Positions 2,239 to 23,921 of a stretch of DNA of 32,571 bases are shown here, piece after piece (position 1 is the first letter of the stretch; each line of letters opens with the position of its first letter). The notes below the pieces were generated by a model. That model saw only the letters and a list, made by a program, of their open reading frames with translations. It searched no databases and was not told the DNA's origin. Where the stretch lies: positions 1 through 32,571 of the forward strand of contig JAAXVP010000005.1 in assembly GCA_013335435.1 (NCBI GenBank). Reading direction: 5' to 3'. A program made the translations under genes and the position numbers. This DNA is from Thiobacillus sp. Its GTDB lineage: Bacteria > Pseudomonadota > Gammaproteobacteria > Burkholderiales > Thiobacillaceae.

Positions 2239-5200
2239 TCACCCGCACGCCCCCACCGCCCCACACGCCGTGCAGAAATCGCAGCCATCCTTGCGGATCA
2301 CCGTCTCGTTGCCGCACTCCTTGCAGCGCTTGCCCTTCATCGCCGGCATGGCGGCGGGGGCCTGGCCGGCCGGGGCGGGGGCTTCCAGGATGCCCATCTG
2401 CTGGATCGGCTGGCCGTCTTCGGTCAAGAGGCCAAGCATGGCGTAGCGGTGGATGATGAGCTGGGCGACGTAGGCCACCGTCGACGGCCAGGTCTGGCTC
2501 TTCTCGGAACCCGGGATCTTGGCCATGAAGTCGCCCAGCGGCTCCTGGTAATTCAGCAGCTTGCGCAGCTTCATGCCGATCCAGGCCGGGTCGATCACCC
2601 GCATGTCGAGCGACAGCAGCTTGCACAGGCCGTCCAGGGCGCGCGGGTAGTCGCCCGACAGCCAGACCGAATAGGGCCGGGTGACGCCGTCAGGCAGGGT
2701 GATCTCCTTCAGGCCGAGGACGAAGTCGTCCTCCGAGGCCGGGTTGAGCACGTCGACGGTCCAGGACAGGGTGCCGTCGGTGCCGGTCTTGGGCTCCTTG
2801 TGGCTGAACAGGACGTCGATCAGCGGGCTTGGGCCTTCCACGTTGAGGGCGCCGATCTGTTCCAACCGCCACTGCACGATCTGGGCCAGGGCCGCGACCA
2901 TGCTGGGCACCGAGCGCAGTTCGCCATGGGGCGGGAAGGGAATGAAGCAGGCGTCGTCGCCGCGGGTCTTGGCCAGGGATTCCAGCTTCAGTTTCAGCCA
3001 GGCGCGGTCGTTGGCGCGCATGTCCATGGACAGTGACTTGGCCAGGGCGCCGAGGCCGCGCGGCTGCTCGGCGCCGTTGACCCAGAGCTCGAACGGCCAG
3101 GCCTTGCCGCCGCCGTTCTCCACATGGCCGACGAAGATGGCGAAGCTGCCGTGGGGCGATTCGATCATGTAGCTCCAGGCCATGTTGCCGCCCGGCAACT
3201 TGGGCCGGCCGGGCCACTTCAGCGATTCCAGCACCGGGGCGGGGACGTTCTTGATCTCGATGCGGCGGTTCACGTCGCTGATCTGGAAGTCCTGCGGCGC
3301 GGCCTTTTCCTTCTCGACCGAGAGCACGCTGCCGAGCACGGCGTTGGGCCGGTAGGTGGTGATGCCCTTGAGGCCGGCCTTCCAGGCGGCGCTGTAGAGC
3401 TCGGAAAAATCGTCGAACGGATAGTCGCCGGGCACGTTGACGGTCTTGGAGATGGCCGAGTCGACGAACGGCGCCACCGCAGCGACCATCTGCATGTGGT
3501 CCAGGGCGGAGATCTCCAGGGCGGTGACGAAGCTGGCGGGCAGGCGCTCCATGTCGCCGCCCTGGTCGCGGTAGATGCGGTAGGCGTGGTCCTCGACCTG
3601 GTATTCCTTGTGGCCGCCGTCCGGCATGCGCTTCTTGCGCGTGTAGTACCAGGAGAACGGCGGCTCGATGCCGTTGCTGGCGTTGTCGGCGAAGGCCAGC
3701 GAGATGGTGCCGGTGGGGGCGATGGAGAGCAGGTGCGAGTTGCGGATGCCATGCTCGCGGATATCGGCCTTGAGCTCGGCCGGCAGGCGCGAGGCGAAGG
3801 TGCTGCCGGAGAGATACAGGTCGGCGTTGAAGAGCGGGAAGGCGCCGCGTTCCTTGGCCAGCTCGACCGAGGCCTTGTAGGCCTCGTTGCGCATGAACTC
3901 GGCCGCCTTGCCGGCGAAGATGCGCGCCAGGTCGGTGTCGTAACGCAGGCCGAGCATGACCAGGGTGTCGCCCAGGCCGGTGAAACCGAGGCCGATGCGG
4001 CGCTTGGACTGGGCCTCATTGTTCTGCTTGTCGAGCGGCCAGGCGGTCAGTTCGAGGACGTTGTCGAGCATGCGCACGGCCGTGGCGACGGTCTTGGCCA
4101 GGCCGGCGAAGTCGAACTCGGCCTCGGCCAGGAAGCCCGACTTGACGAACCGGGTCAGGTTGATCGAGCCCAGGCAGCAGCAGCCGTAGGGCGGCAGGGG
4201 CTGTTCGCCGCAGTTGTGGGCGTACAGGCCGTTGGCGTCGAAGGCATTGATGCCAGGCACCTGTACGTCGTAGACATCTTCCACCCCCGCCGGAACCACG
4301 GCCTCGACGCGGGCGGTAAAGCGCTCGCGGTTGAGGGTGCGCTTGTAGCCGGCGAGCAGGGCATCCAGTCGACCGGCCTTGTCGCTATCGGAAAAACCGA
4401 TCCGGTCACGGAAACCCAGCAGATTCTCGCCGCTGACCACCAACTCATGCTGGGCGCGGGTGGCATAGTCGGCCCGGCCGCCCTTGCCATCCGGCAGGCT
4501 GGCGCGGCCGGCAACCCGGCGATCGCGATAGACGGAGGACGCGATACCCAGGCGCAGCAGCATGCGCTGGACAGCCAGCAGGTTGTCGAGGTCCGACTGG
4601 GCCAGTCGCACGGACACCCCTTTTGCCTGGCTGCCCTGGACCGAGCCATCGGTATCGAAAAAACCGCGCAGGAAGCCGCGATAAAACTCGCTGGAACACT
4701 GTTCCATGCGCGCGGTTACGACCTTGTTGCCCGATTCGATGCCAAGCTCAAAGGCCAGATCGCGGATGGCCGCGGTCGAGAGCCGGTATTCACCCCGGCC
4801 GGCCACCTCGGACCATCCGGTGAAATCAGCCCGATGCGGCAAGGCGCGCGCAGCGGCCAGAGCTTCGGCCATCATGGCCTGAACACCGACAGGAAGCGTA
4901 GCGGCGGCGCCGTTTGCCTCCGCCGCGTTACGCCAGACCGAAAGGACGGCGGCCTCCTTGTTGATGGTGCCATCGCCAAGCAACAACCCCATCAGGTAGC
5001 CCTCGTGACGACCATGGCTACCTGACCATGCGCCATTGCCACGGTGATCGTTGATCAGTATGCGGTCGCCTGCCTTTAGCTCGCCGGCCGCACACCACTC
5101 CGTTTCGGTGCGATAGCGGGTAAATTCGGTCACCCGCCGCACGCGATGGTCCGTCGTGAGCTTGAGGCGGTAGCCCTCGCTGGTGACAAGCTGCATGACC

Positions 5201-6216
5201 GGCTTGGTGGCGGTACGGAAGAAACCCTGGGAACCGGTGGCGTGGTCGATGCCGTCGACCCTGGCCAGGAACGGCCGGCCGATCAAGTCGCTCACCTGAC
5301 GCGGACCGTCGGCGGTATGTACCCAGGTATCCGCACTGACGCACGGGTTGGTGGCCTCGATGGTTTCGCAGTAGCCGAGGTTGTTGTCCTTGTTGATGCG
5401 GTCGATGAACAGCACGCCCGGCTCGGCATGGTCGTAGGTCGAATGCATGACCTGGGCCCACAGGTCGCGCGCCTTCACCTTCCGATACACCCAGAGGCCG
5501 TCACCGCGCTGGTAGGCCCCGGCGGCCTTCTGCTCCTCGCCCGGCTCGGCCTTGTGGCTGAGTTCGACGTCGCCGTCGTCCTGGACCGCCTGCATGAAGG
5601 CGTCGCTGACGCCGAGCGAGATGTTGAAGTTCTTCAGGTCGCCGCTGTCCTTGGCGTGGATGAAGTCCTCGATGTCCGGGTGGTCGCAGCGCAGCACGCC
5701 CATCTGGGCGCCGCGCCGGGCGCCGGCCGACTCCACGGTCTCGCAGGAGCGGTCGAACACCCGCATGTAGGAGATCGGGCCGCTGGCGCGCGACTGGGTA
5801 CCCTTGACCAGGGCGCCCTTGGGCCGGATGGTGGAGAAGTCGTAGCCGACCCCGCCGCCCCGGCGCATGGTCTCGGCGGCCTCTTCCAGGGCGTTGTAGA
5901 TGCCCGGCTTGCCGTCGTTGATACCGGAGATGGCGTCGCCCACCGGCTGCACGAAGCAGTTGATCAGGGTGGCCTGGAGTTCGGTGCCGGCGGCGGAGTT
6001 GATCCGCCCGCCGGGAATGAAGCCGGCCTCCATGGCCTCGAAGAAGCGGCGTTCCCAGACCGCACGGGCTTTCTTGTCCTCGACCGCGGCGAGCGCGCGG
6101 GCGACCCGCATGCGCACGTCGGTGACGTTCTTCTCGGTGCCCTTGGCGTACTTCTCAAGCAGGACTTCGGTGGAAATATCCTGCTCGGCCAGTTCCGGAA
6201 ACAGCGCTTCTTGCAT
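2239..6216 (-). CDS. nrdJ: adenosylcobalamin-dependent (class II) ribonucleoside-diphosphate reductase, intein-containing precursor
   Basis: 1325 aa precursor. RNR motifs [14 protein letters not shown] and SAPTGT-like [28 protein letters not shown]-terminal TSCPD-like repeats and CxxC zinc-like tail ([29 protein letters not shown]). Confidence 0.95.
4213..5343 (-). other. In-frame intein (about 377 aa) with LAGLIDADG/DOD homing endonuclease inside nrdJ
   Basis: Starts [20 protein letters not shown] (block A), TTDH (block B), LAGLIDADG-like [12 protein letters not shown] and [12 protein letters not shown], ends [25 protein letters not shown] (blocks F/G). Boundaries computed from codons: Cys1 at 5343..5341, terminal Asn at 4215..4213; 1131 nt = 377 codons. 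Confidence 0.95.
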
Positions 6217-7449: not shown

Positions 7450-7812
7450 CTATGTCCTATTCCTGTTATGGCCACGTCGAAGTTCACTGACCTGCACGTG
7501 CTTGGGGCTTAACCCGTCTTTCAGAATCTTGAGCGCCGGCGCGGTATCCCGGTCACCGCACAGGAAAATGTCCAGGGCGATGAAATCGCGTTCCGGCCAA
7601 GTGTGCAGGCTGATGTGGGATTCCGCCAGGATGGCCACGCCGGTGATGCCGCCGCCATCGCCGAAACCGTGCAGGCGTACCTCCAGAACCCGTGCGCCGC
7701 AGGCCTCGGCCGCCGCCCGCAGCAGGGTTTCGACCTGATCGAGGCCGGTGGGCTGGTGGGCGCCCCAAAAGTCGATGAGCAGGTGCAGGCCGGGAGCGTG
7801 GTTTTCGTTCAT
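7450..7812 (-). CDS. speD: S-adenosylmethionine decarboxylase proenzyme (SpeD)
   Basis: 120 aa from ATG 7812: GLHLLIDFWGA..., self-cleavage motif AESHISLHTWPE, FIALDIFLCG. Confidence 0.92.
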   Translation of the reverse strand: MNENHAPGLHLLIDFWGAHQPTGLDQVETLLRAAAEACGARVLEVRLHGFGDGGGITGVAILAESHISLHTWPERDFIALDIFLCGDRDTAPALKILKDGLSPKHVQVSELRRGHNRNRT

Positions 7813-8909
7813 GTCTTCGCCGAATTGAAAAATAGGATGGCCTTCCAGGGAGTATTCGCCACGCCCATGCGCCAGATGTAGGCATCCAGCAGGTAGTGGG
7901 TGATCTGGGGCAGCGCCAGGAGGGGAACCAGCCAAGTCAGCAGGGTGGGGCTGTCCAGGCCGGGCAGATGGGCGAAGGTTGGGAATAGCACCGCATGCTC
8001 GCGCCATACCAGACCGTCCCAGAGCCCCTCTTCCAGATAGGCGATCAGGAACAGCAGCGCCAGGTAGATCGGGGCGAACCTCGCCTGGAACAGGCGGGCC
8101 ACCGGCAACAGGTAAGCGGTGCATCCACGATCGTGCGCCTGCTGGTTGCGGCCGTAGATCCAGATCAGGGCGATGTAGGGCACGCCGTGGGCAATGACGT
8201 TGGTGGCGGTGAAGGCCAGATCGTTGTCGAACACCAGGATGCCCACGTACCAGGACAGCGCCGTACCCAGCAGCATGAGGTTCTTGGGCAGGTTCAGCAC
8301 GCCACGCCGCAGTCCGTACACAGTCTCCTTGGCCATATAAACCGCCAGCATGGCCACATAGACCCAGCCTGCTGCCGCCGCCACGGCCGGCGCGTCGAAG
8401 GCCAGGAAATCTCCCGGCACGAACCAGTCGAACTGACGTGGACCGCAATGCCAGGCAATCAGGGGATAGAGCGTGGCGGCATAGATCAATGCCTGGTCCA
8501 GACGTTTGGCCCAGGCGGGGTCCGCGTATTCGGCACGCCGGTAAATCATCAGGAAACCATATTGTTGGCGTACGAAGTGAAACGCCGCCAGATAGGCCAG
8601 GGTGCGCCAGAACACCATGTCCCCCAGCCGGTAGAGCACCACCCCAAGCACGAAGCCGATCAGCGGCGTCAACACATAAAGTGCTTGATGCGAGCGCAGC
8701 TCCCCCCGGTCGAGGTAGGTGCGGAATATCGTGCTCCAGACGTGGCCCACATCCACCCCGACGATGAGCAGCAGCCAAAGCAACGGGGGCGTCTCGGCGA
8801 TGGCTTCGACCGAATCGCCCAGGACCAGCACCAAGCCCGTGACGAGGAAGGCGGGTGCCAGGATGAAGGCCGAATCCAGGCCGGCGGAATGGATCCAGGG
8901 TTGCTTCAT
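7809..8909 (-). CDS. polytopic integral membrane protein, unknown function
   Basis: 366 aa from ATG 8909 (MKQPWIHSAGLDSAFILAPAFLVTGLVLVLG...), multiple hydrophobic helices; 4-nt overlaps with both neighbours. Confidence 0.75.
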   Translation of the reverse strand: MKQPWIHSAGLDSAFILAPAFLVTGLVLVLGDSVEAIAETPPLLWLLLIVGVDVGHVWSTIFRTYLDRGELRSHQALYVLTPLIGFVLGVVLYRLGDMVFWRTLAYLAAFHFVRQQYGFLMIYRRAEYADPAWAKRLDQALIYAATLYPLIAWHCGPRQFDWFVPGDFLAFDAPAVAAAAGWVYVAMLAVYMAKETVYGLRRGVLNLPKNLMLLGTALSWYVGILVFDNDLAFTATNVIAHGVPYIALIWIYGRNQQAHDRGCTAYLLPVARLFQARFAPIYLALLFLIAYLEEGLWDGLVWREHAVLFPTFAHLPGLDSPTLLTWLVPLLALPQITHYLLDAYIWRMGVANTPWKAILFFNSAKT

Positions 8910-10531
8910 GCCCTTGCCCCCAGATGGTCGAGGACGCCTTCGGCGGCCTTGACGCCGTAGGTGTAGGCCTCCTCGAAGATGGAAATCCCGGCCATGTCCG
9001 AATGGGCGAAGAAGATGGGGGGATGCTGCCGCAGGGCCTGCCGGCGCGCCTCGCCCCAGATGAAACCGGGATGGGGGCGGATCATGGCGTGGCCCCACAG
9101 CCTGAGGTCGATACGCCGGATGGCGCCCTCCAACTCGGGGTGGAGCCGCAACACCTCCGCATGGATCAAGGACTTCCATGCCTCCGCGCCGCGCGCCAGG
9201 GCCTGCTCGCGGGCCGCAGGGGGAGGAAGGTGATCCAGCGGCCAGTACCAGGTAATGACCGTCCGGCGCGGCCGCATCGCCAGGCCCTGATGGGTGGCCA
9301 CCACATAACCGAGCATGGGGCTGCCATATACCACGTTGTCCCAGGCCAGTTCGGCACCGGGCCCGGCAGGCAGGCGATCCAGCGTGAGGTTGGCGACCAG
9401 CCAGGGCGAATACCGGAAATCGCGGTCGTCGATGCCCAAGCGGTCGCTGCGCACGATGCGCCGGGCGACGAAGCGCGGCACGGCCAGGACGACGGCGCGG
9501 GCATGCACCCTCAGCACCCGGTTTTCATCCGGCAGGAAGAGGTCGGTGGCCGGCCGTTTACCGTCCTGAACCCGCACCGCCAGGGCGCGGGTGCGGATAC
9601 GATCGGCGATGGGCGCGCGCAGTTTGTCGACCAGCCAGCCGTTGCCTTCCGGCCAGGTCAGCACGGTGTCGCTTTCCGCGTTGGCGGCGCGGCCGGAGCG
9701 GGAGGCGAAGTAGTGGATGCCGGCCCAGGCGGACACCTCGTCCAGGCCGGCGCCGTAATCGTCGCGGCAACTGTAGTCGAGCAGCCAGCGCAGGTGCTCG
9801 CCCCGGTAGCCCTCCCGGTCCAGCCATTTCCGGAAAGAGATCCGGTCGAGCGTGCGTAGGTCCGGGTCGGCGGAACTCGCGTCGATGGGGATGGCGAAGG
9901 CTCGACGGCCGTCCTTGCCGCGCAGGTTCTTGAATGCCGCCATCCGGTCGAAGAAGCGCCGGTATTCGCCGTGCTCCTCGGCACTTACACCCAATTGCGG
10001 CAGCAAGCCGTCCTGCCACTGGCCGTGCATGAGTAGACGTTCATCGGGATCGGCGCAGAGGGCGTAATCGTCGTAAACGGGTAACCCCGCCGGGTCGTAA
10101 CCGGTAATGACGCCTAGCCGCTCGAACAGATGCCGCACCGCCACCGACTCCTCGCTCGGCAGGGGCACGTAATGGGCGCCCCAGGGGTAGGCGGAAATTT
10201 CATTCGCGCCGGCGCGGGAGTGGCCACCCACGGCGTCTTCCATTTCCGCCAACAAGAAGGACACGCCGGCATCGTGCAGGCGCAGCCCCGCCGCCAAGCC
10301 GCTAATGCCGCCCCCGACGATGAGCACGTCGGTTTCCAGCGTCTGCGTCGGCTCCGGGACGTCGCCTGTGCGCAAACGGTGGCCCAACGTGGCATCCGCG
10401 CCCAGCAGGGCACCCGGAATGGGTGGGGGTGCGTGCCGGGACCACGACCACCCCGCCAGTGCGGCGGAACCGGCCAGGCCGGACGCGCCCAACAGCCAGC
10501 GGCGGCGCGCGGGCGACCGGGGCTGGCTCAT
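8906..10531 (-). CDS. FAD-dependent oxidoreductase (flavin amine oxidase-like) with Tat-type signal
   Basis: 541 aa from ATG 10531; N-terminal ARRRWLLGASGLAGSAAL twin-arginine signal, then TDVLIVGGGISGLAAGLRLHDAGVSFLLAEMEDAVGGHS dinucleotide-binding motif. Confidence 0.85.
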   Translation of the reverse strand: MSQPRSPARRRWLLGASGLAGSAALAGWSWSRHAPPPIPGALLGADATLGHRLRTGDVPEPTQTLETDVLIVGGGISGLAAGLRLHDAGVSFLLAEMEDAVGGHSRAGANEISAYPWGAHYVPLPSEESVAVRHLFERLGVITGYDPAGLPVYDDYALCADPDERLLMHGQWQDGLLPQLGVSAEEHGEYRRFFDRMAAFKNLRGKDGRRAFAIPIDASSADPDLRTLDRISFRKWLDREGYRGEHLRWLLDYSCRDDYGAGLDEVSAWAGIHYFASRSGRAANAESDTVLTWPEGNGWLVDKLRAPIADRIRTRALAVRVQDGKRPATDLFLPDENRVLRVHARAVVLAVPRFVARRIVRSDRLGIDDRDFRYSPWLVANLTLDRLPAGPGAELAWDNVVYGSPMLGYVVATHQGLAMRPRRTVITWYWPLDHLPPPAAREQALARGAEAWKSLIHAEVLRLHPELEGAIRRIDLRLWGHAMIRPHPGFIWGEARRQALRQHPPIFFAHSDMAGISIFEEAYTYGVKAAEGVLDHLGARA

Positions 10532-10929
10532 TTGCCGAACCCCATCCGTACGGCCGCCATGGCGAAGGCGAAGACGAATCCGTAGGCGAAGGACTCCAGG
10601 CGCAGTGGCTCCTTGCCCCGGCTGCGCATGCGCGCGCCGATCAGAGCCATCATCAGGCCGGCGCACAACGGGGTCAGGAACAGGTTGAGCCAGCGGGCGG
10701 CGGCGCCGTGGACGAACAGTTCCGGAAACACGAGCAGGCTGATGCCGCCGGCCACCGTGCCGAACAGGGCATGGCCCAGAGTGGCCAACCAGGGATTGAT
10801 GGGGCCGCGCCGGAACGGCTCGCGCACACTGCGTAGGCCCACTTCAGCCAGCAGTTCGAAAACCGCCTGGAGGGCGATTTCCAGTATGGCCTGAAGCAGG
10901 TAAGCGAGGATTTCCGCCAGGATTTCCAT
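10528..10929 (-). CDS. small membrane protein, unknown function
   Basis: 133 aa from ATG 10929: MEILAEILAYLLQAILEIALQAVFELLAEVGLRSVREPF...; about three hydrophobic segments; 4-nt overlap with downstream gene. Confidence 0.6.
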   Translation of the reverse strand: MEILAEILAYLLQAILEIALQAVFELLAEVGLRSVREPFRRGPINPWLATLGHALFGTVAGGISLLVFPELFVHGAAARWLNLFLTPLCAGLMMALIGARMRSRGKEPLRLESFAYGFVFAFAMAAVRMGFGK

Positions 10930-10934
10930 GTCGG

Positions 10935-12449
10935 CTACCAGACGGTCTGGTAGGCCCCCCATTCCTCGTCGAAGTAGCGCACCAACACCTGGTTGTCGAG
11001 CCGCTGCACACCGCTGTCGACATAGGCCATGTCGGCCGGGAAATGCAGCATGCGTTCGGTTTCCTCCACGCTCACGTAACGCAGCCCGTCGGGATAGCGT
11101 TGCGGCGGCGACCAGTGTCCCCGGCTGGCGAGCAGGTAGCCCCACTCGCCGAAGGCCGGCACATAGGCATGGTAGGGGGTGACTTGGTAGCCCGCCGCCG
11201 CCAGGGTGTTGCGCACGCACCAATAGGACTTGCGTGCCACCAGCGGCGAGGTGCTTTGCACGACGATGCGGGTCTCCGCATGGGTCAGCCCGTGCAGGGC
11301 CCGATAGAAGCTCAACGAATAGAGCTTGCCGATGGAGTAGTTGGAAGGGTCCGGCAAGTCGATGACGATGGCGTCGTAGGGCGGCATGCCGGCTGCCGCC
11401 GACTTGCGCACCCAGAGGAAGGCATCCTGGTTGATGATCCGCAACCTGGACGACTTGAGGGCATCGCCGTTCAACGCCGTGAGCAGTTCATTGCCGGAAA
11501 ACAGCCGGGTCATGGCCGGGTCCAGGTCGACCAGGGTGACGTGTTCCACCGCCGGATATTTCCATATTTCGCGTAGCGCCAGGCCATCGCCGCCGCCGAT
11601 GATCAGCACGCGCCGAGGCCGGTCCAGCGACGCCAGTGCCGGGTGCACCAGTGCCTCGTGATAGCGGTATTCGTCCAGGCTGGAAAATTGCAGGTTGCCG
11701 TTGAGGTAAAGGCGCAGGTCCCGGCCGGCCCGGGTCAGCACGATGCGCTGGTAGGGGGTGGACTGGGCGTGGATCACCCTGCCCGGATAGGTGGCCGCTT
11801 CCGCCGTGCCGGTGATGTCCTCGGCATGGATGAACCCCGCCAGCAGTGCCAGCAGGACCACGAAGGCCATGCCGCGCTGCGGCCGGGCGCCGGGGATGGC
11901 GTCCGGGACCGCGTAAAGAAGCCACAGGGCCACCAGCACGTTCATCATGCCGAACAGGAAGCCGGTCTGGATCAGGCCCAGGTGGGGCACCAGCAGGAGG
12001 GGGAAAAGGATGGAGGCGAACAGGGCGCCGGCGTAATCGAAGGTGAACACCCGGGAGACCAGGTCGCTGAACTCGAAACGGTCCTTGAGGATGCGCAGCA
12101 GCAAGGGGATTTCGATGCCCACCAGGATGCCCACGGCGAGGACGTCGGCATAGAGGATGACGCGGAACGATTCCACCCGCTCGAAGACCAGGAACAGCAG
12201 GGCCGCCGAGCCGCCGCCCAGGGCGCCGACCAGGATTTCCACCTGTACGAACACGGCCACCAGATTGCGCCGGACATAGCGCGACAACCAGGAACCGATG
12301 CCCATGGCCGAAAGGTAGGCGCCGATGATGGTGGAGAACTGGGTGACCGAATCGCCCAGGAGATAACTCGCCAGGGTGCCGGCGATCAGCTCGTACACCA
12401 GCCCGCAGGTGGCGATGACGAAGACGGAGACGAGCAGCAGGAAGGCCAA
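10935..12449 (-). CDS. spermidine synthase-like protein with N-terminal multi-TM domain
   Basis: 504 aa; N-terminal hydrophobic helices, C-terminal aminopropyltransferase-like Rossmann fold with VLIIGGGDGLALREIWKYPAVEHVTLVDLDPAMTRLF and VIDLPDPSN. Confidence 0.88.
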   Translation of the reverse strand: MAFLLLVSVFVIATCGLVYELIAGTLASYLLGDSVTQFSTIIGAYLSAMGIGSWLSRYVRRNLVAVFVQVEILVGALGGGSAALLFLVFERVESFRVILYADVLAVGILVGIEIPLLLRILKDRFEFSDLVSRVFTFDYAGALFASILFPLLLVPHLGLIQTGFLFGMMNVLVALWLLYAVPDAIPGARPQRGMAFVVLLALLAGFIHAEDITGTAEAATYPGRVIHAQSTPYQRIVLTRAGRDLRLYLNGNLQFSSLDEYRYHEALVHPALASLDRPRRVLIIGGGDGLALREIWKYPAVEHVTLVDLDPAMTRLFSGNELLTALNGDALKSSRLRIINQDAFLWVRKSAAAGMPPYDAIVIDLPDPSNYSIGKLYSLSFYRALHGLTHAETRIVVQSTSPLVARKSYWCVRNTLAAAGYQVTPYHAYVPAFGEWGYLLASRGHWSPPQRYPDGLRYVSVEETERMLHFPADMAYVDSGVQRLDNQVLVRYFDEEWGAYQTVW

Positions 12450-12521
12450 GGGGGTGCCTATCGAAGTCCGGCCGGCGGCCGGACTCCGCCGCGGAACAGG
12501 ATGATGGCGCTCTCGCCGGTC

Positions 12522-12743
12522 TCACCCATGCACGGCCGCGCTGATGATGATGGCGATCCCCAGCATCACCGCGCCCAGGAACACGGCCAGGGCGATGTTC
12601 TGTTTCTGGGTAAGCTCATCCCAGAGATCGACCTTGGGTGTGAAAAACTCCAGGATGCCGAAGCAAAGCGCGAAAAACCCCACGCCCACGGCGGAGAACA
12701 GCACGGCGTTGAGGACGAATTTCCACTGGACGGGGTCTTCCAT
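12522..12743 (-). CDS. DUF350-family membrane protein
   Basis: 73 aa, two TM segments: MEDPVQWKFVLNAVLFSAVGVGFFALCFGILEFFTPKVDLWDELTQKQNIALAVFLGAVMLGIAIIISAAVHG. Confidence 0.75.
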   Translation of the reverse strand: MEDPVQWKFVLNAVLFSAVGVGFFALCFGILEFFTPKVDLWDELTQKQNIALAVFLGAVMLGIAIIISAAVHG

Positions 12744-12751
12744 GAGAGCTC

Positions 12752-12904
12752 CTATTTGTGGCTGACCTGGCCGCTGGCGGACCGGCTGGCCGGGTCGGTG
12801 TCGTTAAAAAGGCTGGAAACCATGTAGCCCCGGTAATTGGCCCAGGCCATGCCGGCTACCAGGCAAAGGGCGAGGATCTGATACAGGCGAGGCGGTTTAT
12901 TCAT
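12752..12904 (-). CDS. 50-aa single-TM small protein
   Basis: Manual translation: MNKPPRLYQILALCLVAGMAWANYRGYMVSSLFNDTDPASRSASGQVSHK*; fits between DUF350 and DUF4178 genes and is missing from the supplied track (below its length cutoff). Confidence 0.55.
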   Translation of the reverse strand: MNKPPRLYQILALCLVAGMAWANYRGYMVSSLFNDTDPASRSASGQVSHK

Positions 12905-14225
12905 CATCGTTGCTTAATGAATTCTTGATGCTGGCGTAGCCCTCCGGCATGTAGTCGCTTTCCGACCAGCGCGCGTATTCGAAACCGTGATGGCGCAGCC
13001 AAAGAAACGCGGGGTAAGGCAGCAGGGCCAGCAATAGGGCGAACCAGTTGGACCAGATGGGGGTGTCGCGCAATACCCGCACGCTGAAGGTCTGCTTGCC
13101 GGGCCGCCCCAGCTGGAAATCCCCCGCGTCCGGCTCCAGGACGAGCCGGTACTGGCCGCCGGGCACGGCCGAGAAACAGTTCGAGGCCTTGGTATCGCCC
13201 TCGCTCCAGTGTTCCCCGCCATCGTAGCCGGAGTAGTACTCCATGCCCTGGAGCAGGTTGCGGCGTTCCAGGGTGGCTTCATTGACCAGGGTCGCGCTCA
13301 GTTCCGCCCAACTGTTGTTGAGTACCGCCTGGCTCTCAAGGCAGACGTTGGCGCTTTCCTTTTGCAGGACGAAAGAATGGCTTACATGGGTCCGGTCGGG
13401 GCTTTCTGTCGTGGCATCGAAGGTATCCACAAGAGCCTGCTGGCCGGATGCGCTGTAAACCTGGGCAAACTGGATGGCAGTGGCCACCAGCGTCGCCAGC
13501 AGGGCCGCGCGCAGCACACCGGGCAGGCGCCGGGCGAACGACGAGGGCTGGTTGGCCGCCACGCCACGCGGCGGCGGCATCTTGCCAGGGTCGATGGCAA
13601 AGGCGGCGGCGATTTCCTCCTGGCTGACATAAACGCCCAGGGCGGTGTTCGTCTCATCCTTCCCCTTCTCCACCGACAGGATGTAGGGCGGCGCGATGGA
13701 ATCGCTGACCTGTGCCGTATCACCCTTCTTCACACGCCAGTAGAACTCCCCCAGCACGTAGTCCACCCTGGCCTCGCCCGTGAAGAAGCGGGCGAAACTG
13801 GCCTCCGCCGGCAGGGCCATGCCGCTCTTGATCACCCGATATAAGGTCCAGTGGCCTTGCGCCTGAGCCAGGAAGCGGAAGCCGTGACGCGGGTTGAACA
13901 ACAGGTACTCCTCCCAGGCGTATCGGCCCTCCTGGGCGGAACCGCTGCTGCGTTCCTGGTAGCCGATAACCTCCCAGGGAGTCCCCTCTAGGCTGGCTCG
14001 GGTACCCAGGGGAATGAGCAGGGGGCGTTGGCTTTCCCAGGCCTTATTCAGGACCTTCACGTCTTCCCGCGCCACGTCCAGCAAGGAGCCGCATTGGCTG
14101 CACGCCGCGTTGACGCTGTGGCCAACCGCGCGCAGTGTGATGGCGCCGCCGCAGACCGGACATTGCATGACTTGCGGCCGGCCGGCCGGCGAGGCCGATG
14201 GCACCGGGATTTCCGGCTCGGCCAT
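12897..14225 (-). CDS. DUF4178-like protein with N-terminal zinc ribbon and C-terminal TM-flanked extracytoplasmic domain
   Basis: 442 aa; QCPVCGGAITLRAVGHSVNAACSQCGS zinc ribbon; WEVIGYQERSS...WEEYLLFNPRHGFRFLAQAQGHW; two TM segments flanking about 150 aa. Confidence 0.75.
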   Translation of the reverse strand: MAEPEIPVPSASPAGRPQVMQCPVCGGAITLRAVGHSVNAACSQCGSLLDVAREDVKVLNKAWESQRPLLIPLGTRASLEGTPWEVIGYQERSSGSAQEGRYAWEEYLLFNPRHGFRFLAQAQGHWTLYRVIKSGMALPAEASFARFFTGEARVDYVLGEFYWRVKKGDTAQVSDSIAPPYILSVEKGKDETNTALGVYVSQEEIAAAFAIDPGKMPPPRGVAANQPSSFARRLPGVLRAALLATLVATAIQFAQVYSASGQQALVDTFDATTESPDRTHVSHSFVLQKESANVCLESQAVLNNSWAELSATLVNEATLERRNLLQGMEYYSGYDGGEHWSEGDTKASNCFSAVPGGQYRLVLEPDAGDFQLGRPGKQTFSVRVLRDTPIWSNWFALLLALLPYPAFLWLRHHGFEYARWSESDYMPEGYASIKNSLSNDDE

Positions 14226-14873
14226 CTACCAGCCCTCCAGCGGACGGGTATTTTCCAGCTTCAGTTCATCCCAGCCGGCATAACGCCCCTGATACAGACG
14301 CCCTTCGTTCTGGTGGATTTCCAGGCTGGCGAAACCGCCCGCGCCTTCCAGGTCGATGGCCAGCGCCTTCCGGCCCCGGTTGGCGAGGAAAGGCAGTTCG
14401 CCCTCGCTACCCAGGCAGATGGTATGTTTGACGTCCACCACTTCCCAGGCCCGTTCGCCCACGTTCACGCGCTCGCCCGGCTTGGGTTTCCAGGTGGCGA
14501 GATCGCGGTTGATCACGGGGCGGCCCTCATGTTCCAGCGGCCGTTCGAAGCAGGCGGCGAAGAAGCCCTGGGCTTCCGCCAGCCAGCCCTTGCGAGCGTC
14601 TTCGGTGACCATGAACCACTCGTTCCAGGTGCCGTCCTGCCAGCCGATCTTCACCCGGCCCAGCAAGGAGAAGCCGACGCCGTCCAGCACGCCGCGGGTA
14701 CCGATCTGGAAAGGACTCATGTCCGGCGGCAGGGCCGCCATCTTGCCGAACGCCTCCACATCCACGTCGCGGCGCAGGATCATGCTTTTGCAATGGTTAC
14801 AGACGGCGTAGACCGAGATGCCGGAATGGAACTCTCCCGGTGCGCCGCAGGCTGGGCAAGTGTATCCGTGCAT
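14226..14873 (-). CDS. DUF4178-like zinc ribbon protein
   Basis: 215 aa; YTCPACGAPGEFHSGISVYAVCNHCKS; LLGRVKIGWQDGTWNEWFMVTEDARKGWLAEAQGFF; abuts the next gene directly. Confidence 0.75.
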   Translation of the reverse strand: MHGYTCPACGAPGEFHSGISVYAVCNHCKSMILRRDVDVEAFGKMAALPPDMSPFQIGTRGVLDGVGFSLLGRVKIGWQDGTWNEWFMVTEDARKGWLAEAQGFFAACFERPLEHEGRPVINRDLATWKPKPGERVNVGERAWEVVDVKHTICLGSEGELPFLANRGRKALAIDLEGAGGFASLEIHQNEGRLYQGRYAGWDELKLENTRPLEGW

Positions 14874-14882
14874 GGACCGGGC

Positions 14883-15884
14883 TTACTGGATGCGGCCCAG
14901 CAATTCCGTCTTCTTGGCCTCGAATTCGGCCTGGGTGATCAGGCCCTTGGCGAGCAGGTCGCCGAGTTTCTCGATCAAGGCAATAGGATCCTCCTGGGCC
15001 GGGCCGGCGGTCGCGGCGGCTGGCGGGGTTGCCGTCATGGCCTGCCCCATTGCTTGCGCCATGGCCAGCCCGGCCCCCATGCCGGCGCCGATCCCGGCGA
15101 TGCCGCCGGGGTTCTCGGCCGCCAGGGGGATGGCATCGGCGGTCTGGAAGCGGGTGTATTGCCCCAGGTCGCCCACGATGCGCTGGGAGGCGGCCCGGTC
15201 CAGGTGTTTTTCCAACTCCTCCGGCAGGGACAGGCTTTGCAGGAAGAAGGTGGCCAGCTCCAGCCCATACTCACGGAAGGCCGGGGCGACGGCCTCCTTG
15301 AGCCGGTTGGAGAACTCGGCCTGGTTGGCGGCCATGTCCACGAAGGCCACGGCGCTGCCCCCGAGGAAACTGCCCAGGGCGGTGAGGATGATGGCCCGCA
15401 GCTGGCCGTCCAAGTCGTCCACGGTATAGCGCGCCGCCGTACCGGACAGCTTGCGCCAGAAAGGCTCCAACTCGGCGATGCGAAATGAATACGTGCCGAA
15501 CGCGCGGATGCGCAGCGGACCGAACTCCTTGTCGCGCACCGTGATGGGCTGGGTGGTGCCCCATTTGCGGTCGATCTGCTCGCGCAGGCTGAAGTAATAG
15601 ACATCCGACTTGAAGGGCGACTCGAAGAACTTGTCCCAGTTCTTCAGGTAGGTCAGCACCGGCAGGGTCTGGGTGGTGAGCGTGTAGGTGCCGGCGTCGA
15701 ACCGGTCGGCGAAGCGGCCCTCGTCTATGAATACGGCCTGTTGGGTCTCGCGCACCACCAGTTGCGCCCCGTTCTGGATTTCCATGTCGGCCATGGGGTA
15801 GCGCCAAGCCAGAACGCCCGGCTCATCTTCCGTCCACTGGATGACGTCGATGAACTGTTTGGCGACAAAATCGAACAGGCCCAT
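14883..15884 (-). CDS. SPFH-domain protein with C-terminal SHOCT-like motif (YdjI/virion-core-protein type)
   Basis: 333 aa from ATG 15884 preceded by GGGAGAG: MGLFDFVAKQFIDVIQWTEDEPGVLAWRYPMADMEIQNGAQLVVRETQQAVF...; C-term IALIEKLGDLLAKGLITQAEFEAKKTELLGRIQ. Confidence 0.85.
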   Translation of the reverse strand: MGLFDFVAKQFIDVIQWTEDEPGVLAWRYPMADMEIQNGAQLVVRETQQAVFIDEGRFADRFDAGTYTLTTQTLPVLTYLKNWDKFFESPFKSDVYYFSLREQIDRKWGTTQPITVRDKEFGPLRIRAFGTYSFRIAELEPFWRKLSGTAARYTVDDLDGQLRAIILTALGSFLGGSAVAFVDMAANQAEFSNRLKEAVAPAFREYGLELATFFLQSLSLPEELEKHLDRAASQRIVGDLGQYTRFQTADAIPLAAENPGGIAGIGAGMGAGLAMAQAMGQAMTATPPAAATAGPAQEDPIALIEKLGDLLAKGLITQAEFEAKKTELLGRIQ

Positions 15885-16251: not shown

Positions 16252-17013
16252 TCATGGGTAGTGGAATTCGCCGATCAGGATCAGTTCGCCGGCGTTGCGC
16301 AACGGCACGGTGAAGAACTGCTTCTTTTCGCCGGGTGTGTTTTCCTGCGAAATGACCGTGACATTGGCGACGGTTATTTCGCCCTCGCCGTCGCCACGCC
16401 CGTAATAGTTCACATACACCAGATAGGCGCCGGGCAAGGGGGCCGGCATCGAGAAGATCTCCGGGCCATAGCCGGTGGTGACATCCACATCGAGCGCGCC
16501 GCCATTGTCGAGCACGCGGTTGCCGTAGAAGGCGTGGCCTCCGTCCGGGGTGACGACGTGCAGATCGAGATCGGTGCCGTCGGTGTCCCAGGCCAGTACG
16601 ACGCGCAATCGGCTTTGCGCGCGGCCGCCGTAGGATTCATGAAACTGGACGCGCCGGCTTGCGCCGCCCGGCGCGCGCAGTTCGACGCTGTTGCTACCCC
16701 GGCCGAAGCTGTAAGGACGCGAGAAACTGCCGTCCGATTCGATCCGTTGCGGCAGTGCCACACCGTTGACGATCAGGGTCGCCGGTGCCCGGCCGGGCTT
16801 CTTCGCCTGGGCGATGCGCCCGGCGATCAGCCCCGCGCGCGACTGGCCTTCCGGCACCGATACCACCACTGCCGGGTAGTTGACCGGCTGGCTGTAGCGC
16901 ACGTTCTGCCCCTCGCTGTTGCGCCAGCCACCGATCGGCGCGGTGATTTCGACATCGGCCGCGCTGGCGGTCGCGCTGAAGAGCAGACTCAGTAGGATCG
17001 TAGCAGTGCGCAT
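16252..17013 (-). CDS. yfaP: YfaP-like DUF2135 secreted protein
   Basis: 253 aa, signal peptide; LAWDTDGTDLDLHVVTPDGGHAFYGNR...GALDVDVTTGYGPEIF, YLVYVNYYG; at the end of a yfa-type operon. Confidence 0.85.
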   Translation of the reverse strand: MRTATILLSLLFSATASAADVEITAPIGGWRNSEGQNVRYSQPVNYPAVVVSVPEGQSRAGLIAGRIAQAKKPGRAPATLIVNGVALPQRIESDGSFSRPYSFGRGSNSVELRAPGGASRRVQFHESYGGRAQSRLRVVLAWDTDGTDLDLHVVTPDGGHAFYGNRVLDNGGALDVDVTTGYGPEIFSMPAPLPGAYLVYVNYYGRGDGEGEITVANVTVISQENTPGEKKQFFTVPLRNAGELILIGEFHYP

Positions 17014-17050
17014 GGCGGGTCGCCTGTTCAGGATGGTGAAGGAATGAGGA

Positions 17051-18754
17051 TCATGGCTGCCCCTCGACTTGCAAGCGCCGCGCCGTGGCTTCGATGAAGC
17101 CTTCGTCGAGGCCGCGCGGATGCTGTTTGAAGGCGAGGTGCAGATATTCGTGGGCCAGGGTCAGGCGCGCCTCGCGGTCGTCGAGTCCGCGCGCGTAGAT
17201 TCGTCCGCGTTCCAGGTCGGCATAGGGGTTGCCTTGACGCAGGCGGCAAACCGCCGGCGCGGGAACGGGCTCGAAGCCGTCTTCGCCGGCCAGCGCGCGC
17301 TGCCATTGCCTCAGTCGGGCACTCAGCCAGTGTTCCGCCCCGGCCAAATGCTCGCAGTCGGTCGCCAGCGGGCTGTCGGTGGAAACCAGGCTGGCGCGCG
17401 GAAAAGCGCCGGCGAGGATCCGGTCGAAAGGCTCGCCCCGCTGCGCCCGCGCCTCGGCCTCACGCCAGGCCAGGCGGTTCGGGCCGGGCTGGTCGAGGTG
17501 GTATTGAACCGGCACGCCATCGAGCACCAGACTGTCCGACCAGTTGGCGATGGCGCGCGCGGCGGCGCTCGGCGGCGACGGGGCGACGCGCTGGCTGGCG
17601 CTGCTGTCGTCGATGGCGAGACAGCCCATTTCACGGCCGGCGTTCTGGTACAGGTAGGTGCGCGCGACGATGGCGAGGGCGCGCGCCGCCGCCTCGGGCT
17701 GCGGCGCCGCCTCGCGCTCCAGCACCCGTGCGACATAATCGTTGACCGCCAGCGTGGCGACCAGACGCGGCCCGGCGAGCTGCTCGATCTCGCCGTCGCT
17801 GCTGAACGCGAGCCGGTTGCCATTGGCAAAGCGTGCCAGGTATCGGCCGCGCAACACGCCGCTGCGCACCGGCCGGCCGGCCGCGTCCTCGACGCCTTGT
17901 AGCGGATAGCGCGCAAACAGGCCGACCCGGACGCATTCGCCGGGCAGCGTTCCCGCATCGGCGCGCAGGGTGGCGGGGAAATGCCTTGCCGCCACCGGCA
18001 GGGCGACATGGCTGGGCCCCGCCGCGCGCAGCCAGATCGGCGTGCCGTCGGCCAGCCAGCCGGCCGCGCCGCCGATGCGCCGATCGGGCTTGTCCGCCTG
18101 GTGCCAACTCCAAGTCTTGGCGCGCAGGCGCGCACCGAATTCACGCAACAACGAGGTATCGCGCGCACCCAGCACGCTCGCCAGCAGCGCGCCCCCGGCC
18201 GCGCGACGCGGCTGCTCCGGCACGCTGGCCAAGGCTTGCAACAGGCTTTCGACGCCGACCAGCGTACCGGGTTGCAGGCCGGACAGATCCCGCAGCCAGG
18301 CCGGCGCCGCACGCGCCTGCCAGTAGCGGCGCCAGTCCGCCGCCGCGATGCCAAGCCGGTGCGGTTGGAAATAGAGTCCGCAGGAGCGCGCCAGGGCGGC
18401 CTCCCGGCCGATGCTGCCGCCGGGCGCGCAGCAATAGACTTCGTCTCGTGAATTGCCGCCGCAGACGTAGTCCTCCGAGTCGAGCCGCCGGTCGATCAGA
18501 TAGACATAGACAAACAGCTTCCAGACGCTGCCCAGTGGGGTTTGCAGGCGCGGGTCCAGGCGCGCTTCCGGTGCCGGCCGCATCGACTCCGAATCCGAAC
18601 CCGAATCCGACGCCAGCCAGTAGCGTGCCTGGCCGTTGCGCAACGCGGCGTATTCCACGGCGCCGGCCCATGCCGGGGTGGCGGCCAGGAGCGCCAGGCC
18701 GAGCGCGCCAGCCCGCATCCGGGAAACATGGCCGTACCGAAACCGGAAAGCCAT
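17051..18754 (-). CDS. yfaQ: YfaQ-like DUF2300 protein
   Basis: 567 aa, signal peptide; lies between the A2M and DUF2135 genes as in yfaASTQP loci; LTLAHEYLHLAFKQHPRGLDEGFIE motif. Confidence 0.8.
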   Translation of the reverse strand: MAFRFRYGHVSRMRAGALGLALLAATPAWAGAVEYAALRNGQARYWLASDSGSDSESMRPAPEARLDPRLQTPLGSVWKLFVYVYLIDRRLDSEDYVCGGNSRDEVYCCAPGGSIGREAALARSCGLYFQPHRLGIAAADWRRYWQARAAPAWLRDLSGLQPGTLVGVESLLQALASVPEQPRRAAGGALLASVLGARDTSLLREFGARLRAKTWSWHQADKPDRRIGGAAGWLADGTPIWLRAAGPSHVALPVAARHFPATLRADAGTLPGECVRVGLFARYPLQGVEDAAGRPVRSGVLRGRYLARFANGNRLAFSSDGEIEQLAGPRLVATLAVNDYVARVLEREAAPQPEAAARALAIVARTYLYQNAGREMGCLAIDDSSASQRVAPSPPSAAARAIANWSDSLVLDGVPVQYHLDQPGPNRLAWREAEARAQRGEPFDRILAGAFPRASLVSTDSPLATDCEHLAGAEHWLSARLRQWQRALAGEDGFEPVPAPAVCRLRQGNPYADLERGRIYARGLDDREARLTLAHEYLHLAFKQHPRGLDEGFIEATARRLQVEGQP

Positions 18755-18756
18755 TC

Positions 18757-21700
18757 TCAGCGCACCCGCCAGGACTTCCGGCCGTCGGCTTCGTAGGCCT
18801 TGTCGTTGGGCTGGTACATGCGGAAGTAGCGCGTCGGCGGCAAGACGAACCGGCCACGCTGCAGGAAGCGCACCAGTTGTCGCGTTACGACTGGGCCGTC
18901 GAGCTGGGCCAGCGGAACGCGATAGCCGAGTTGCCCCGTTTCATATTCCGGCGGGGCAAAGGCGACGGCCGCGGCCTCGCCCTTCTCGTCGCGCTCCAGT
19001 CCGGCGATTTGGATGCCCCAGGTGGAGGCCTCGACCATGCCGCCGGGCGGCAGGGGCACTTCCAGCAGACCATAGCGATGGCGTCGGCCCTGTGCGGGTA
19101 CCAGGGTCACTTCATCGACATAAAGCGTGGCACTGGACAAAGCCTCGCCCGGCGCGACCGGCAAGGCCTTGAATTGCAAATCGCCACCTTGCGATTCCAG
19201 GCGGTAGAGTTGGCGTTTCACTGCCACCGGCAGGCGCCCGTTTGCCTTCTCGAACGCGGTGTAGCGCAGGCTGGCGCTGATCGGCGCAGCGGGCGCGCCC
19301 GCCAGGCGGATGCGGTTCGGCCAGGCGATGCCGTTTGGCCAGAGCCATTGGCCGGCTTGCGGAATCCAGTCCAGTGGCCGCAGTTGCGTCCTGGCCGGGA
19401 CGCGGAAGCCACCCAGCACGCGATGTACCCAAGCCAGGGTCATCGCCCGTTCCAAGGTCGGCTGTTCGCCGCCGCTGCGGCTCAGTATCGTCTCCGGCGT
19501 CCAGGCGCGCGGGTTGCCATTCAAGCGCAGCAAGGCATGCAGGAAGGGCGAGTCCGATGCCGGCAGCGCATCCATGGCCTTGCGATGGAGCGTGTCCGCC
19601 CCTGCCGGCAGTCTGCCCCCGGCCACGGTGAGCTTCAGCAACAGCGCGCTGGCCAGACGCGCATCGCGCGAATCGGGCGCGGCGAACACCAGGCTGTCGC
19701 CGGGCGCCGGGGCGGCTTCCCGTGCCTCGATACCGTCGGCCAATTGCTGCGCCAGGCCTCCCGCCAGACCTTCCACCGGCAAGCCCATCTCCTTCGCCCA
19801 CCAGAGCAGCAGGGCGCGCTGCAGAAGCGGATCGGCCTCGCCGCGTTTGCGGTAGACCTCGAGCACATGGCGCCAGTTGTCGGCCGGCAGTTCCAGGCCG
19901 AGGCTGCGCGAGGCGAAGTAGTCGGCGTAGTAGGCATAGCCGGTCATGAATGCGCTCTCGGCGCCGGCACGGCCCCACCAGCCGAACACGCCGTCACTGC
20001 CTGCCATCTGGATCAGGCGCAGGCGTTGCGCCTGCAACTGGCTATCCAGGCCGCTGGCGCCGGCGCCGTCATGCAGCGCCTGGCGCGCCAAGGCCAGCGG
20101 GATCAGGCGGCTGGAGGTTTGTTCGACGCAGCCATAGGGATAGTCGAGCAGGTCGTCGGCAACTTGCCTGAAACGGTCCGCGGCGTTGTCGGCCAGGCTC
20201 AGGCGCAGGTCGCGGGCATCGGCGGGCAGGTGGACCGGCGTGCTGGCCGCGGCCAGATCGATGTGGTCCTGATGCGGCGAGGGCCAGGCCACCGGCGACG
20301 AGCGCAGGTCGACGGTCAGGCTGTCGACGATCTTACCGCCGCCGTTCCCGGCCACCACCAGTTGCAGGCCAAGCTGGCCGCGATGCGCCTTCTTCAACTG
20401 CACCGGGAAGAAATTCGGGCCGGGGCGCATGATCACCGGGCGGACATTCGTGCTGCCGGCGAACAGGGTGCGGAATTCGGCGCGGACGTCCTTGTTGCCC
20501 CGGTTGAAGCCGACCACGTCGATGATCGGTTCGTCGTCGTCGCGGTAATCGCGCGGGCCGGGCCATTTCAGATACAGCGCCTTGTCCGATTGAACGTAAG
20601 CCCGACGCTGGCCGGCGCTGCCGTCGTCGCCCAGCGCACGCGCGGTGATGCGCCAGCGGGTCAGCGAATCCGGCACCTTGAAGCTGGCCGAGGCGCGGCC
20701 CTTGGCGTCGGTACGCAGGTCGGGGAACCAGGCGGCGGTATCGATCTCGTCGCGCCGCGGGCGTTCCAGCACCTTGACCCGGCGTTCCGGGTGCGCGACC
20801 TGGCGCGCGCCTTCGCCGCCGTAGTCGCGCGCCAGGTCGTAGCCGATGAAGGCCAGGCTGGAACTGGTGCGTACGTTGTCGCGGCGAACGTGGTGCAGGA
20901 ATTCGTCGAGGTCGGGCGCCAGTTCGGGTTGCAGTACATAGATCATTTCGTCGACCACGCCGACCGTCAGATGCGCCGCGACCGGCTTGCCGGCCAACCG
21001 GGCAGCGAACCGCAGGCGCGCGGTTTCGCCGGGCTGGTAGACCGCCTTGTCGGACTGGATGTCGATGTCGATGCGTGGATGTTCGACCACCAGACCCGCG
21101 TTCTGGAACACGTATTCAGCGTTCCGGACCATGACCGCCGAAAACGTCATGTTGGGCGCCATGTCCTCGGTGACGCGCAGCCGCACCCGCCATTGGTTGC
21201 CGGCCAGGCGCTGGACGCTGTCGAGCCAGGCGGCGGGACGCGACAGCAGCGCATGGTGGGCGACGTTATCGCGCTCCAGCGTGAGCAGCGCGTCGTCGAC
21301 CGGCTCGGGAAAGGTCAGCAGCAGTTCCGCCGCGTCGCCCACCGCGTAGCGCGGTTTGTCGGTGACGATCTCGATGCTGCCGGGCATGGTCCGGATACCC
21401 TTGCCGCTGACCCAATGGGTCGCCGCACCGAGCAGGTTGCCCTGGCCGTCGCGCAGGTTGACGGTATAAGAGCCGGACGCGGGGAAATCCACGTTCAGGC
21501 TACCGGCGCCATCGGCGAGCCGGCCCTCGCTGCGCGCGCGGTCCTCCAGGCGGATGACCTCCCAGCGCGCGCCGGCGAGCCGACCCGCGCCCTCCAGCTT
21601 GAACACCACCTTGGCGCCGGGTTCGCTGAAACGTGCCGGCGCGACCAGACGCCAGGGCTGGGCGCCGCGTTCCACCAACAGTTCGCGGCTGATCTTGACC

Positions 21701-23346: not shown

Positions 23347-23915
23347 TTCATGAGTCGCCGGGGCGCAACGGCGCGCAGGCCGTTATCCGACGGGGTTGCC
23401 GTGCCGGTGTGGTACGCGATGTAAGCGCCCATCCACACCATGAGATGTTGGTCATCACCCTGATCGAAAAACAGCAGGTCGCCCGGCTCGGCACGCGTCA
23501 AATCCCTGCCCAGGGCGCGGCAATTGCCCTGAATCAGGGCCAGCGCGGTGACGAAGGACCGGCGGCGGCCGTCGATATCGACCCAGTCGCGCAGTGTTTC
23601 GTGTTGCCCGGCGGTCAATCGCGGCTCCGGCGGCAAGGCGATGCCTTGCAGGCCGTTGGCGCGCACCCAGGCGGCATCGTGCCGGCGCAGCGCCTCGCGC
23701 ACGGCAAAGCGCACCAGACCGGCGCAATCGCGATGCCGCCAGCGCGGCGACGGCCCCGCGCGCAACTGCGTCGCCACCATCAGGGTGATCCAGGCACGCA
23801 ACCGGCGCGATTGCTCGGCGTCCAGCAGGGTCTCCGGCGCGGCTTCCAGTATGGCCCGTGCCGGTCCGGCGAGCAGGCCCAGGAATAACGCCGAGAAGAC
23901 TTGACGACGGTTCAT
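23265..23915 (-). CDS. yfaT: YfaT-like DUF1175 protein
   Basis: 216 aa with signal peptide; CAGLVRFAVREAL, PGDLLFFDQGDDQHLMVWMG, Y-HTG; position directly upstream of yfaS. Confidence 0.85.
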   Translation of the reverse strand: MNRRQVFSALFLGLLAGPARAILEAAPETLLDAEQSRRLRAWITLMVATQLRAGPSPRWRHRDCAGLVRFAVREALRRHDAAWVRANGLQGIALPPEPRLTAGQHETLRDWVDIDGRRRSFVTALALIQGNCRALGRDLTRAEPGDLLFFDQGDDQHLMVWMGAYIAYHTGTATPSDNGLRAVAPRRLMNWEDTRWRPVPENSNYIGVYRLAFLSR

Positions 23916-23921
23916 GCCGGC

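Follow-up and report, generated by a model that had tools for sequence, protein, structure and literature searches.

What does a bacterium do with polyamine-type enzymes that are built into an operon of membrane proteins? The question is raised by ten genes of Thiobacillus sp. (GenBank assembly GCA_013335435.1), found in a stretch of 32,571 nucleotides that we call the window here (contig JAAXVP010000005.1, positions 1 to 32,571). An original prediction, made from the sequence, described ten co-directional genes and proposed that they make, use or oxidize an aminopropylated product at the membrane. We confirmed that ten open reading frames lie on the minus strand and span positions 15884 to 7450. 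They include genes for SpeD, an S-adenosylmethionine (AdoMet) decarboxylase; for a SpeE-like enzyme fused to transmembrane (TM) helices, called TM-SpeE here; and for an exported amine oxidase. Protein families, synteny and co-occurrence supported a membrane pathway that is based on decarboxylated AdoMet (dcAdoMet) and has an exported amine oxidase; as a whole, the predicted reading was only partly supported. We found that one small gene encodes a peptide that ends in lysine. The presence of this peptide beside polyamine-type enzymes suggests that a peptide is modified at the cell surface, and not that ordinary polyamines are made. We tentatively favor the view, which is not proven, that the locus is a membrane aminopropylation machine acting on the C-terminal lysine of this dedicated peptide.

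A lysine-ended peptide and the genes found with it

Gene 4 (12752..12907) encodes a 51-amino-acid peptide with a single TM segment and a flexible tail that ends in ...GQVSHK. The original prediction had listed a 50-amino-acid TM peptide at this place, but had missed its invariant His-Lys (HK) end and its probable central role. Peptides ending in HK are at the same place in other oxidase-type systems. The corresponding reading frames encode 45-63 amino acids, with one hydrophobic segment, a polar, mostly Gly/Ser-rich arm and HK at the end. The median pairwise identity of the peptides is 30% with the final two residues excluded. Because the N-terminus is positively charged in 40 of 41 tail peptides, we predict that the N-terminus is inside and the tail outside. 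At several loci where no separate peptide was found, the DUF4178 protein itself carries the tail (for example, ...YGGYSSGGGHK).

We surveyed 250 genomes of the host's order (the order sample) and 399 genomes of its phylum (the phylum sample). Once displaced parts had been followed up, an HK tail was seen in every one of the 41 oxidase-type genomes of the order sample that could be inspected. Since these tails had been located by seeking HK, we ran a control over all C-terminal dipeptides, taking the ends of reading frames in which a polar tail comes after a hydrophobic stretch, in 53 genome groups. HK was found in 51 of the 53 groups, compared to a mean of 3.2 and a maximum of 17 for other dipeptides. 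A plasmid from Gemmatimonadota has the tail ...FRHGK at the corresponding place.

TM-SpeE loci that lack the oxidase encode a membrane protein whose tail is different but again has lysine as its last residue (...RGLRGGK, ...GPGSGK or ...FGR(V/I)K), often preceded by an R-(T/S/N)-G-S motif. A lysine-ended tail was present in 15 of 15 inspectable loci of this kind, two minimal clusters included, and some of the tail proteins are lipoproteins. In the minimal cluster L018, adjoining genes encode SpeD, an acetyltransferase, a lysine-tail lipoprotein and TM-SpeE. In L014, the genes for SpeD, a lysine-tail protein and TM-SpeE are together. One locus of the PspA type has the order SpeD, CesT, PspA, DUF4178, DUF350, a protein of unknown function, a lysine-tail protein and TM-SpeE. 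All types thus share a core of SpeD, TM-SpeE and a chain that is held at the membrane and ends in lysine, and the gene 4 peptide is probably core and central to the system.

Two loci have further features. The acetyltransferase encoded between SpeD and the lipoprotein in L018 (6143-6949) is of the GNAT type. Locus L165 (G322:C149) has an SPFH-type protein, TM-SpeE, SpeD, DUF350 and an HK-tailed DUF4178 protein, and the oxidase was not detected in the genome. This locus is possibly an intermediate between the oxidase and PspA types. We dropped the idea that the oxidase depends on the tail histidine, since this genome has an HK tail and no oxidase.

The genes of the operon were clustered in dozens of genomes, which is more than chance would give, as shown by a neighborhood survey of the kind that the original prediction had proposed as a check. 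There were ~42 full-length oxidase homologues in the order sample, and 40 of the loci were read. The neighbors were the same, in two main layouts. In one, the genes are collinear, in the order SPFH-DUF4178-peptide-DUF350-SpeE-oxidase, with or without SpeD at the end. In the other, they are divergent, with DUF350-SPFH-DUF4178-peptide-SpeD opposite SpeE-oxidase. A Novosphingobium plasmid encodes an SPFH protein, two DUF4178 proteins, a 48-amino-acid reading frame, DUF350, an aminopropyltransferase, a flavin adenine dinucleotide (FAD) oxidoreductase and SpeD. That is, eight of the ten genes are kept in the order of the window and only genes 7 and 9 are missing.

The enzymes also occur together genome by genome. 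TM-SpeE was present in 42, the oxidase in 42 and both in 41 of the 250 genomes of the order sample (Fisher p 9e-45), and SpeD was present in 41 of the 42 TM-SpeE genomes (p 7e-21); because the sampled genomes are related, these p-values overstate independence, but the pattern nonetheless spans many families. The two exceptions to the pairing of TM-SpeE and oxidase are fragmented assemblies from one genus. The pairing holds even when the genes are unlinked: they are >130 kb apart in two genomes (G202 and G232) and on separate contigs in two others (G077 and G032). Most of the genomes with TM-SpeE and SpeD (36/41) have no other strong aminopropyltransferase. In the phylum sample, the oxidase was present in 13 of 399 genomes, each with a SpeD and a TM-SpeE that scores high; it was not found in the other TM-SpeE genomes of that sample.

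The enzymes and a possible pathway

Gene 10 (7450..7812) encodes SpeD, a pyruvoyl AdoMet decarboxylase of class 1b (120 amino acids) and the only SpeD in the genome. It matches Pfam AdoMet_dc (101 bits) and passes TIGR03330 (107 bits; cut-off 75.7). Its ESH...HTWPE...CG motif places the pyruvoyl serine and the active-site histidine and cysteine in alignment with those of the AdoMet decarboxylase of T. maritima.

Gene 6 (10935..12449) has a TTG start and encodes TM-SpeE, with seven TM helices followed by a C-terminal SpeE domain (504 amino acids). It matches Pfam Spermine_synth (106 bits) and passes the NCBIfam model PRK03612 for polyamine aminopropyltransferases (639 bits; cut-off 472). The dcAdoMet-site GGGDG (G285-G289) and the catalytic DxPDP (D364 and D367) are invariant in 16 TM-SpeE sequences, and a YH pair is also kept. 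The AlphaFold model has seven TM helices, with a mean predicted local distance difference test score (pLDDT) of 89.9 and a predicted template modeling score (pTM) of 0.72. Lysine and arginine are enriched in loops 2-3, 4-5 and 6-7, and all 16 sequences have a positive loop 6-7. C-terminal to TM7, the chain is acidic. Based on the seven helices and the positive charge in these loops (the positive-inside rule), the N-terminus is predicted to be inside and the SpeE domain extracytoplasmic.

Gene 8 (8906..10531) encodes an FAD amine oxidase of 541 amino acids with the RR motif of twin-arginine translocation (Tat) export. Of 43 homologues, 39 have the motif and 29 have a lipobox-like cysteine. The Pfam match (Amino_oxidase/FAD) is weak. 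The structural model (pLDDT 88.7) has an FAD amine oxidase fold, and the closest Foldseek matches, among them 8p84, 2yg3 and 7d9j, are a bacterial monoamine oxidase, putrescine oxidase, MAO and spermidine dehydrogenase. The gene 8 protein shares this fold and a similar C-terminal region with the spermidine dehydrogenase SpdH from Pseudomonas aeruginosa (PDB 7d9f-j), but the two are only ~15% identical by fold alignment, and many gene 8 homologues have the Tat signal and lipobox. The modeled fold fits amine oxidation and does not name the substrate.

The SpeE domain, the proposed acceptor tail and the oxidase are therefore all placed by topology prediction on the extracytoplasmic face. We suggest the following pathway. 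SpeD, as expected from its family, would make dcAdoMet in the cytoplasm. TM-SpeE, which has the catalytic residues, would use it. The aminopropyl group would be transferred to the gene 4 peptide, at the epsilon-amine of its invariant C-terminal lysine. A lysine that ends a flexible arm could plausibly be the acceptor because the lysine side chain, like putrescine, is a four-carbon chain with a terminal amine. The Tat-exported oxidase could then oxidize the aminopropyl-lysine, or a by-product, outside the cytoplasm. Since the SpeE domain is predicted to be extracytoplasmic, the seven-TM part may be what moves dcAdoMet to that side of the membrane. The SPFH-SHOCT, DUF4178 and DUF350 proteins would serve as a membrane scaffold or sensor, the place held by PspA and CesT in the sister type. 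A new protein modification, in which an extracytoplasmic aminopropyltransferase and an exported flavoenzyme act in turn on a peptide lysine, is a somewhat more doubtful proposition than peptide aminopropylation by itself.

Alternative explanations

Several points weigh against peptide aminopropylation. It is a hypothesis drawn from sequence. dcAdoMet would be needed outside the cytoplasm, but no transporter for it was identified and SpeD has no signal peptide. The predicted topology of TM-SpeE rests on the positive-inside rule and on a model with the pTM given above (0.72). The acceptor-side residues of SpeE (YH, DxPDP and W436) are largely retained. In addition, the genome encodes an OKR-type decarboxylase, through which putrescine or cadaverine may be at hand as an ordinary acceptor. 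Lastly, conservation of the tail could reflect docking, metal binding or attachment to peptidoglycan.

The genomic background bears on the supply of polyamines. There is no pyridoxal phosphate-dependent ornithine decarboxylase of the alanine-racemase fold in the genome; both matches are LysA. An argument that the cell has no putrescine was nonetheless rejected, because the OKR-type decarboxylase is present. Its gene is ~4 kb from that for a PRK04457 SpeE-like protein (G000 contig C484:5806-12013; L193 and L083). Given this homologue (296 bits; cut-off 304), the view of gene 6 as the genome's sole SpeE-like gene needs a qualification. By reading, GLGGAS replaces GGGDG in the PRK04457-type protein, and SpeE-family matches in the order sample (219) outnumber SpeD-bearing genomes (89). 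For these two reasons, we do not count it as a user of dcAdoMet. PRK04457-type SpeE-like proteins appear to be common where genomes of the order lack SpeD, which makes the name aminopropyltransferase doubtful for them.

It is possible, but in our judgment unlikely, that TM-SpeE is a membrane spermidine synthase that converts putrescine and dcAdoMet to spermidine or a related polyamine, which is passed to the envelope. The exported oxidase would then degrade the polyamine or signal with it, and the tail peptide would be only an assembly or sensing part. TM-SpeE does pass the model for polyamine aminopropyltransferases and keeps the canonical catalytic residues, the oxidase fold resembles those of spermidine dehydrogenase and putrescine oxidase, the genome encodes an OKR-type decarboxylase, and 36 of the 41 genomes lack a canonical SpeE. 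However, a membrane spermidine synthase leaves unexplained both the C-terminal lysine, kept across tails that are otherwise nearly unrelated, and the minimal clusters in which SpeD and TM-SpeE accompany a lysine-tail lipoprotein. The predicted extracytoplasmic position of the SpeE domain also argues against it. We rank peptide aminopropylation ahead of this explanation. A covalent anchor to peptidoglycan, formed by the tail lysine, seems rather improbable. The enzymes would tune or compete for the amine and, under stress, domains of the membrane would be tied to the wall. There is precedent in Braun's lipoprotein (Lpp), whose C-terminal lysine is linked by L,D-transpeptidases, through its epsilon-amine, to diaminopimelate. 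Like Lpp, the tail peptide is a predicted extracytoplasmic, membrane-anchored chain with a C-terminal lysine, which is functional in Lpp, and some tail proteins are lipoproteins. In contrast to Lpp, it has a flexible Gly/Ser tail, no coiled coil, an inner-membrane anchor and an operon with SpeD and TM-SpeE. No L,D-transpeptidase gene was seen in the clusters, and anchoring alone does not predict the obligatory link to SpeD and TM-SpeE.

The acceptor might also be a membrane lipid headgroup, such as that of phosphatidylethanolamine, with the tail peptide as a docking or regulatory subunit. The TM-fused enzyme, the SPFH scaffold and partners of the phage-shock-protein type all point to the membrane, and aminopropylation of other substrates has been suggested (Ravi et al., PMC11237479). 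But the operon encodes no protein of a family that binds lipids or acts on them and the conservation of the tail is left unexplained, and we consider a lipid acceptor still less probable than a peptidoglycan anchor. Finally, the SpeD homologue could be a neofunctionalized ornithine or arginine decarboxylase, with TM-SpeE doing something else. Such homologues are widespread, and anomalous speD genes are found in genomes without canonical ornithine or arginine decarboxylases (PMC10407285). In this case, the SpeD exceeds the TIGR03330 cut-off, its closest relatives outside the system adjoin canonical SpeE, it co-occurs strictly with an aminopropyltransferase and, unlike the genomes with anomalous SpeD, this genome has an OKR-type decarboxylase. 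We think that neofunctionalization is very improbable here.

Operon layout, accessory genes and related systems

Genes 1, 2, 3 and 5 also fit the families originally predicted. Hidden Markov models (HMMs) confirmed SPFH-SHOCT, two DUF4178 proteins, DUF350, SpeE-like, amine oxidase and SpeD; failure to assign SpeD, the aminopropyltransferase or SPFH had been named as a possible refutation, and all three were assigned. Gene 1 (14883..15884; 333 amino acids) encodes an SPFH (band-7) protein with a C-terminal SHOCT domain (Pfam Band_7_1, 247 bits, 2e-73; SHOCT, 1e-8) and is kept in the clusters. Between the two domains, where two TM segments are a trait of the published PspA-free variant (PMC11237479), residues 256-290 are Gly/Ala-rich and, by inspection, only weakly hydrophobic. 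Genes 2 (14226..14873; 215 amino acids) and 3 (12897..14225; 442 amino acids, two TM segments) each encode zinc-ribbon cysteines and one DUF4178 match (Pfam, 1.6e-8 and 1.9e-12). Most relatives have a single DUF4178 gene for 480-660 amino acids, of which gene 2 is the first half; here the one protein is split between genes 2 and 3, which the original prediction had missed. Gene 5 (12522..12743) encodes a half-length DUF350 membrane protein of 73 amino acids (Pfam, 47 bits, 2.9e-12) that covers positions 6-66 of the 133 in the profile. Genes 4, 7 and 9 have no significant Pfam family.

From gene 1 to gene 10, the junctions are +9, 0, -11, +8, +72, +5, -4, -4 and -4 nt, with gene 7 taken to start at 10929. 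The predicted 4-nt overlaps or tiny gaps thus hold, except for the 72 nt upstream of gene 6, the largest gap. We found no internal promoter-like site and no excess of terminators within the operon.

Their narrow distribution marks genes 7 and 9 as lineage-specific accessory additions, which the original prediction had not recognized; the Novosphingobium plasmid lacks both. Gene 7 (10528..10929) encodes a membrane protein of 133 amino acids that, among the loci examined, had a phmmer match only in the window's own genome; it is probably not core. An HMM result for gene 7 was discarded because the profile had drifted onto frames overlapping the SpeE gene. Gene 9 (7809..8909) encodes a polytopic membrane protein of 366 amino acids. 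It was found only in the window and in metagenome-assembled genomes of Thiobacillus and Hydrogenophilales (two close relatives), with no match among the plasmids searched. The Hydrogenophilales genome keeps the parts of the operon with insertions between them. Several intramembrane histidines in gene 9 (GH, FH, AHG and TH motifs) hint that its product may be a metal or heme protein of the membrane.

Two neighbors of the operon were also seen. Upstream of it, on the minus strand (16252-25511), is a cluster of the bacterial alpha-2-macroglobulin (A2M) type, with genes for DUF2135, DUF2300/SpoIID, A2M (1529 amino acids) and DUF2138. At 2239-6216, also on the minus strand, is a 1325-amino-acid ribonucleotide reductase-like reading frame with an apparent intein (up to ...YAHN|CGEQ), judged from the translation only.

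The operon class is already known. Operons with TM-SpeE, DUF350, DUF4178 and PspA and a novel lipoprotein have been described, as has a PspA-free variant with band-7/SHOCT in place of the PspA dyad, AdoMet decarboxylase and a polyamine oxidase (Ravi et al. 2024, mSystems, PMC11237479). Sensing of polyamines or aminopropylation of other substrates was proposed for them (PMC11237479). Our locus very probably belongs to the PspA-free variant: both have band-7 and SHOCT, AdoMet decarboxylase and an amine oxidase, and neither has PspA or CesT. The published variant was grouped with ATP-grasp operons, whereas our locus has TM-SpeE. As originally predicted, Pfam found neither PspA nor ATP-grasp among the ten genes. 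The accompanying claim that the variant appears distinct was partly right, as the class itself had been described (PMC11237479). The text on the published variant does not mention a lysine-ended tail peptide, an extracytoplasmic SpeE domain or genome-wide co-occurrence. In the open-access literature searched, we found no mention of a tail that ends in lysine or of its being fused to DUF4178, and none of the outward SpeE domain or the obligatory pairing of TM-SpeE with an exported oxidase.

Operons of the Shewanella AAN56744 type (PMC11237479) share the seven-TM SpeE, DUF350 and DUF4178 with our locus, and in the relatives we examined (L161) they have a membrane protein ending in lysine. They differ in having PspA and CesT where our locus has SPFH; PspA is present in L161, and no PspA/IM30 is encoded by our ten genes. 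No Tat amine oxidase was found in genomes of the Shewanella type, and their tails end in GGK, GSK or GR(V/I)K rather than HK. Canonical SpeD-SpeE pairs share SpeD class 1b and the SpeE catalytic fold with our locus and are mostly in other genomes. In our locus, by contrast, SpeE is fused to seven TM helices, and its constant partners include a tail peptide and an exported oxidase. Diatom silaffins, whose lysines carry polyamine chains, are likewise Gly/Ser/Lys-rich peptides. They are eukaryotic secreted proteins, and the likeness, which extends to the aminopropyl groups proposed here on lysine, is an analogy only.

Our results correct the parts list of this system: its smallest unannotated gene is core, and two larger genes are accessory. 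The lysine-ended tail beside a membrane SpeE provides a concrete, testable candidate acceptor. If peptide aminopropylation is true, the bacterial envelope would have a new kind of post-translational modification, connected with the stress scaffolds SPFH and PspA. The reaction would also be a use of dcAdoMet outside polyamine synthesis; a polyamine-independent role for SpeD was reportedly proposed by Li et al. (2019, Biochem J 476:2579, cited in PMC11237479), and no acceptor is named in the literature covered. The system would then offer a bacterial model for aminopropyl groups put on the lysines of proteins.

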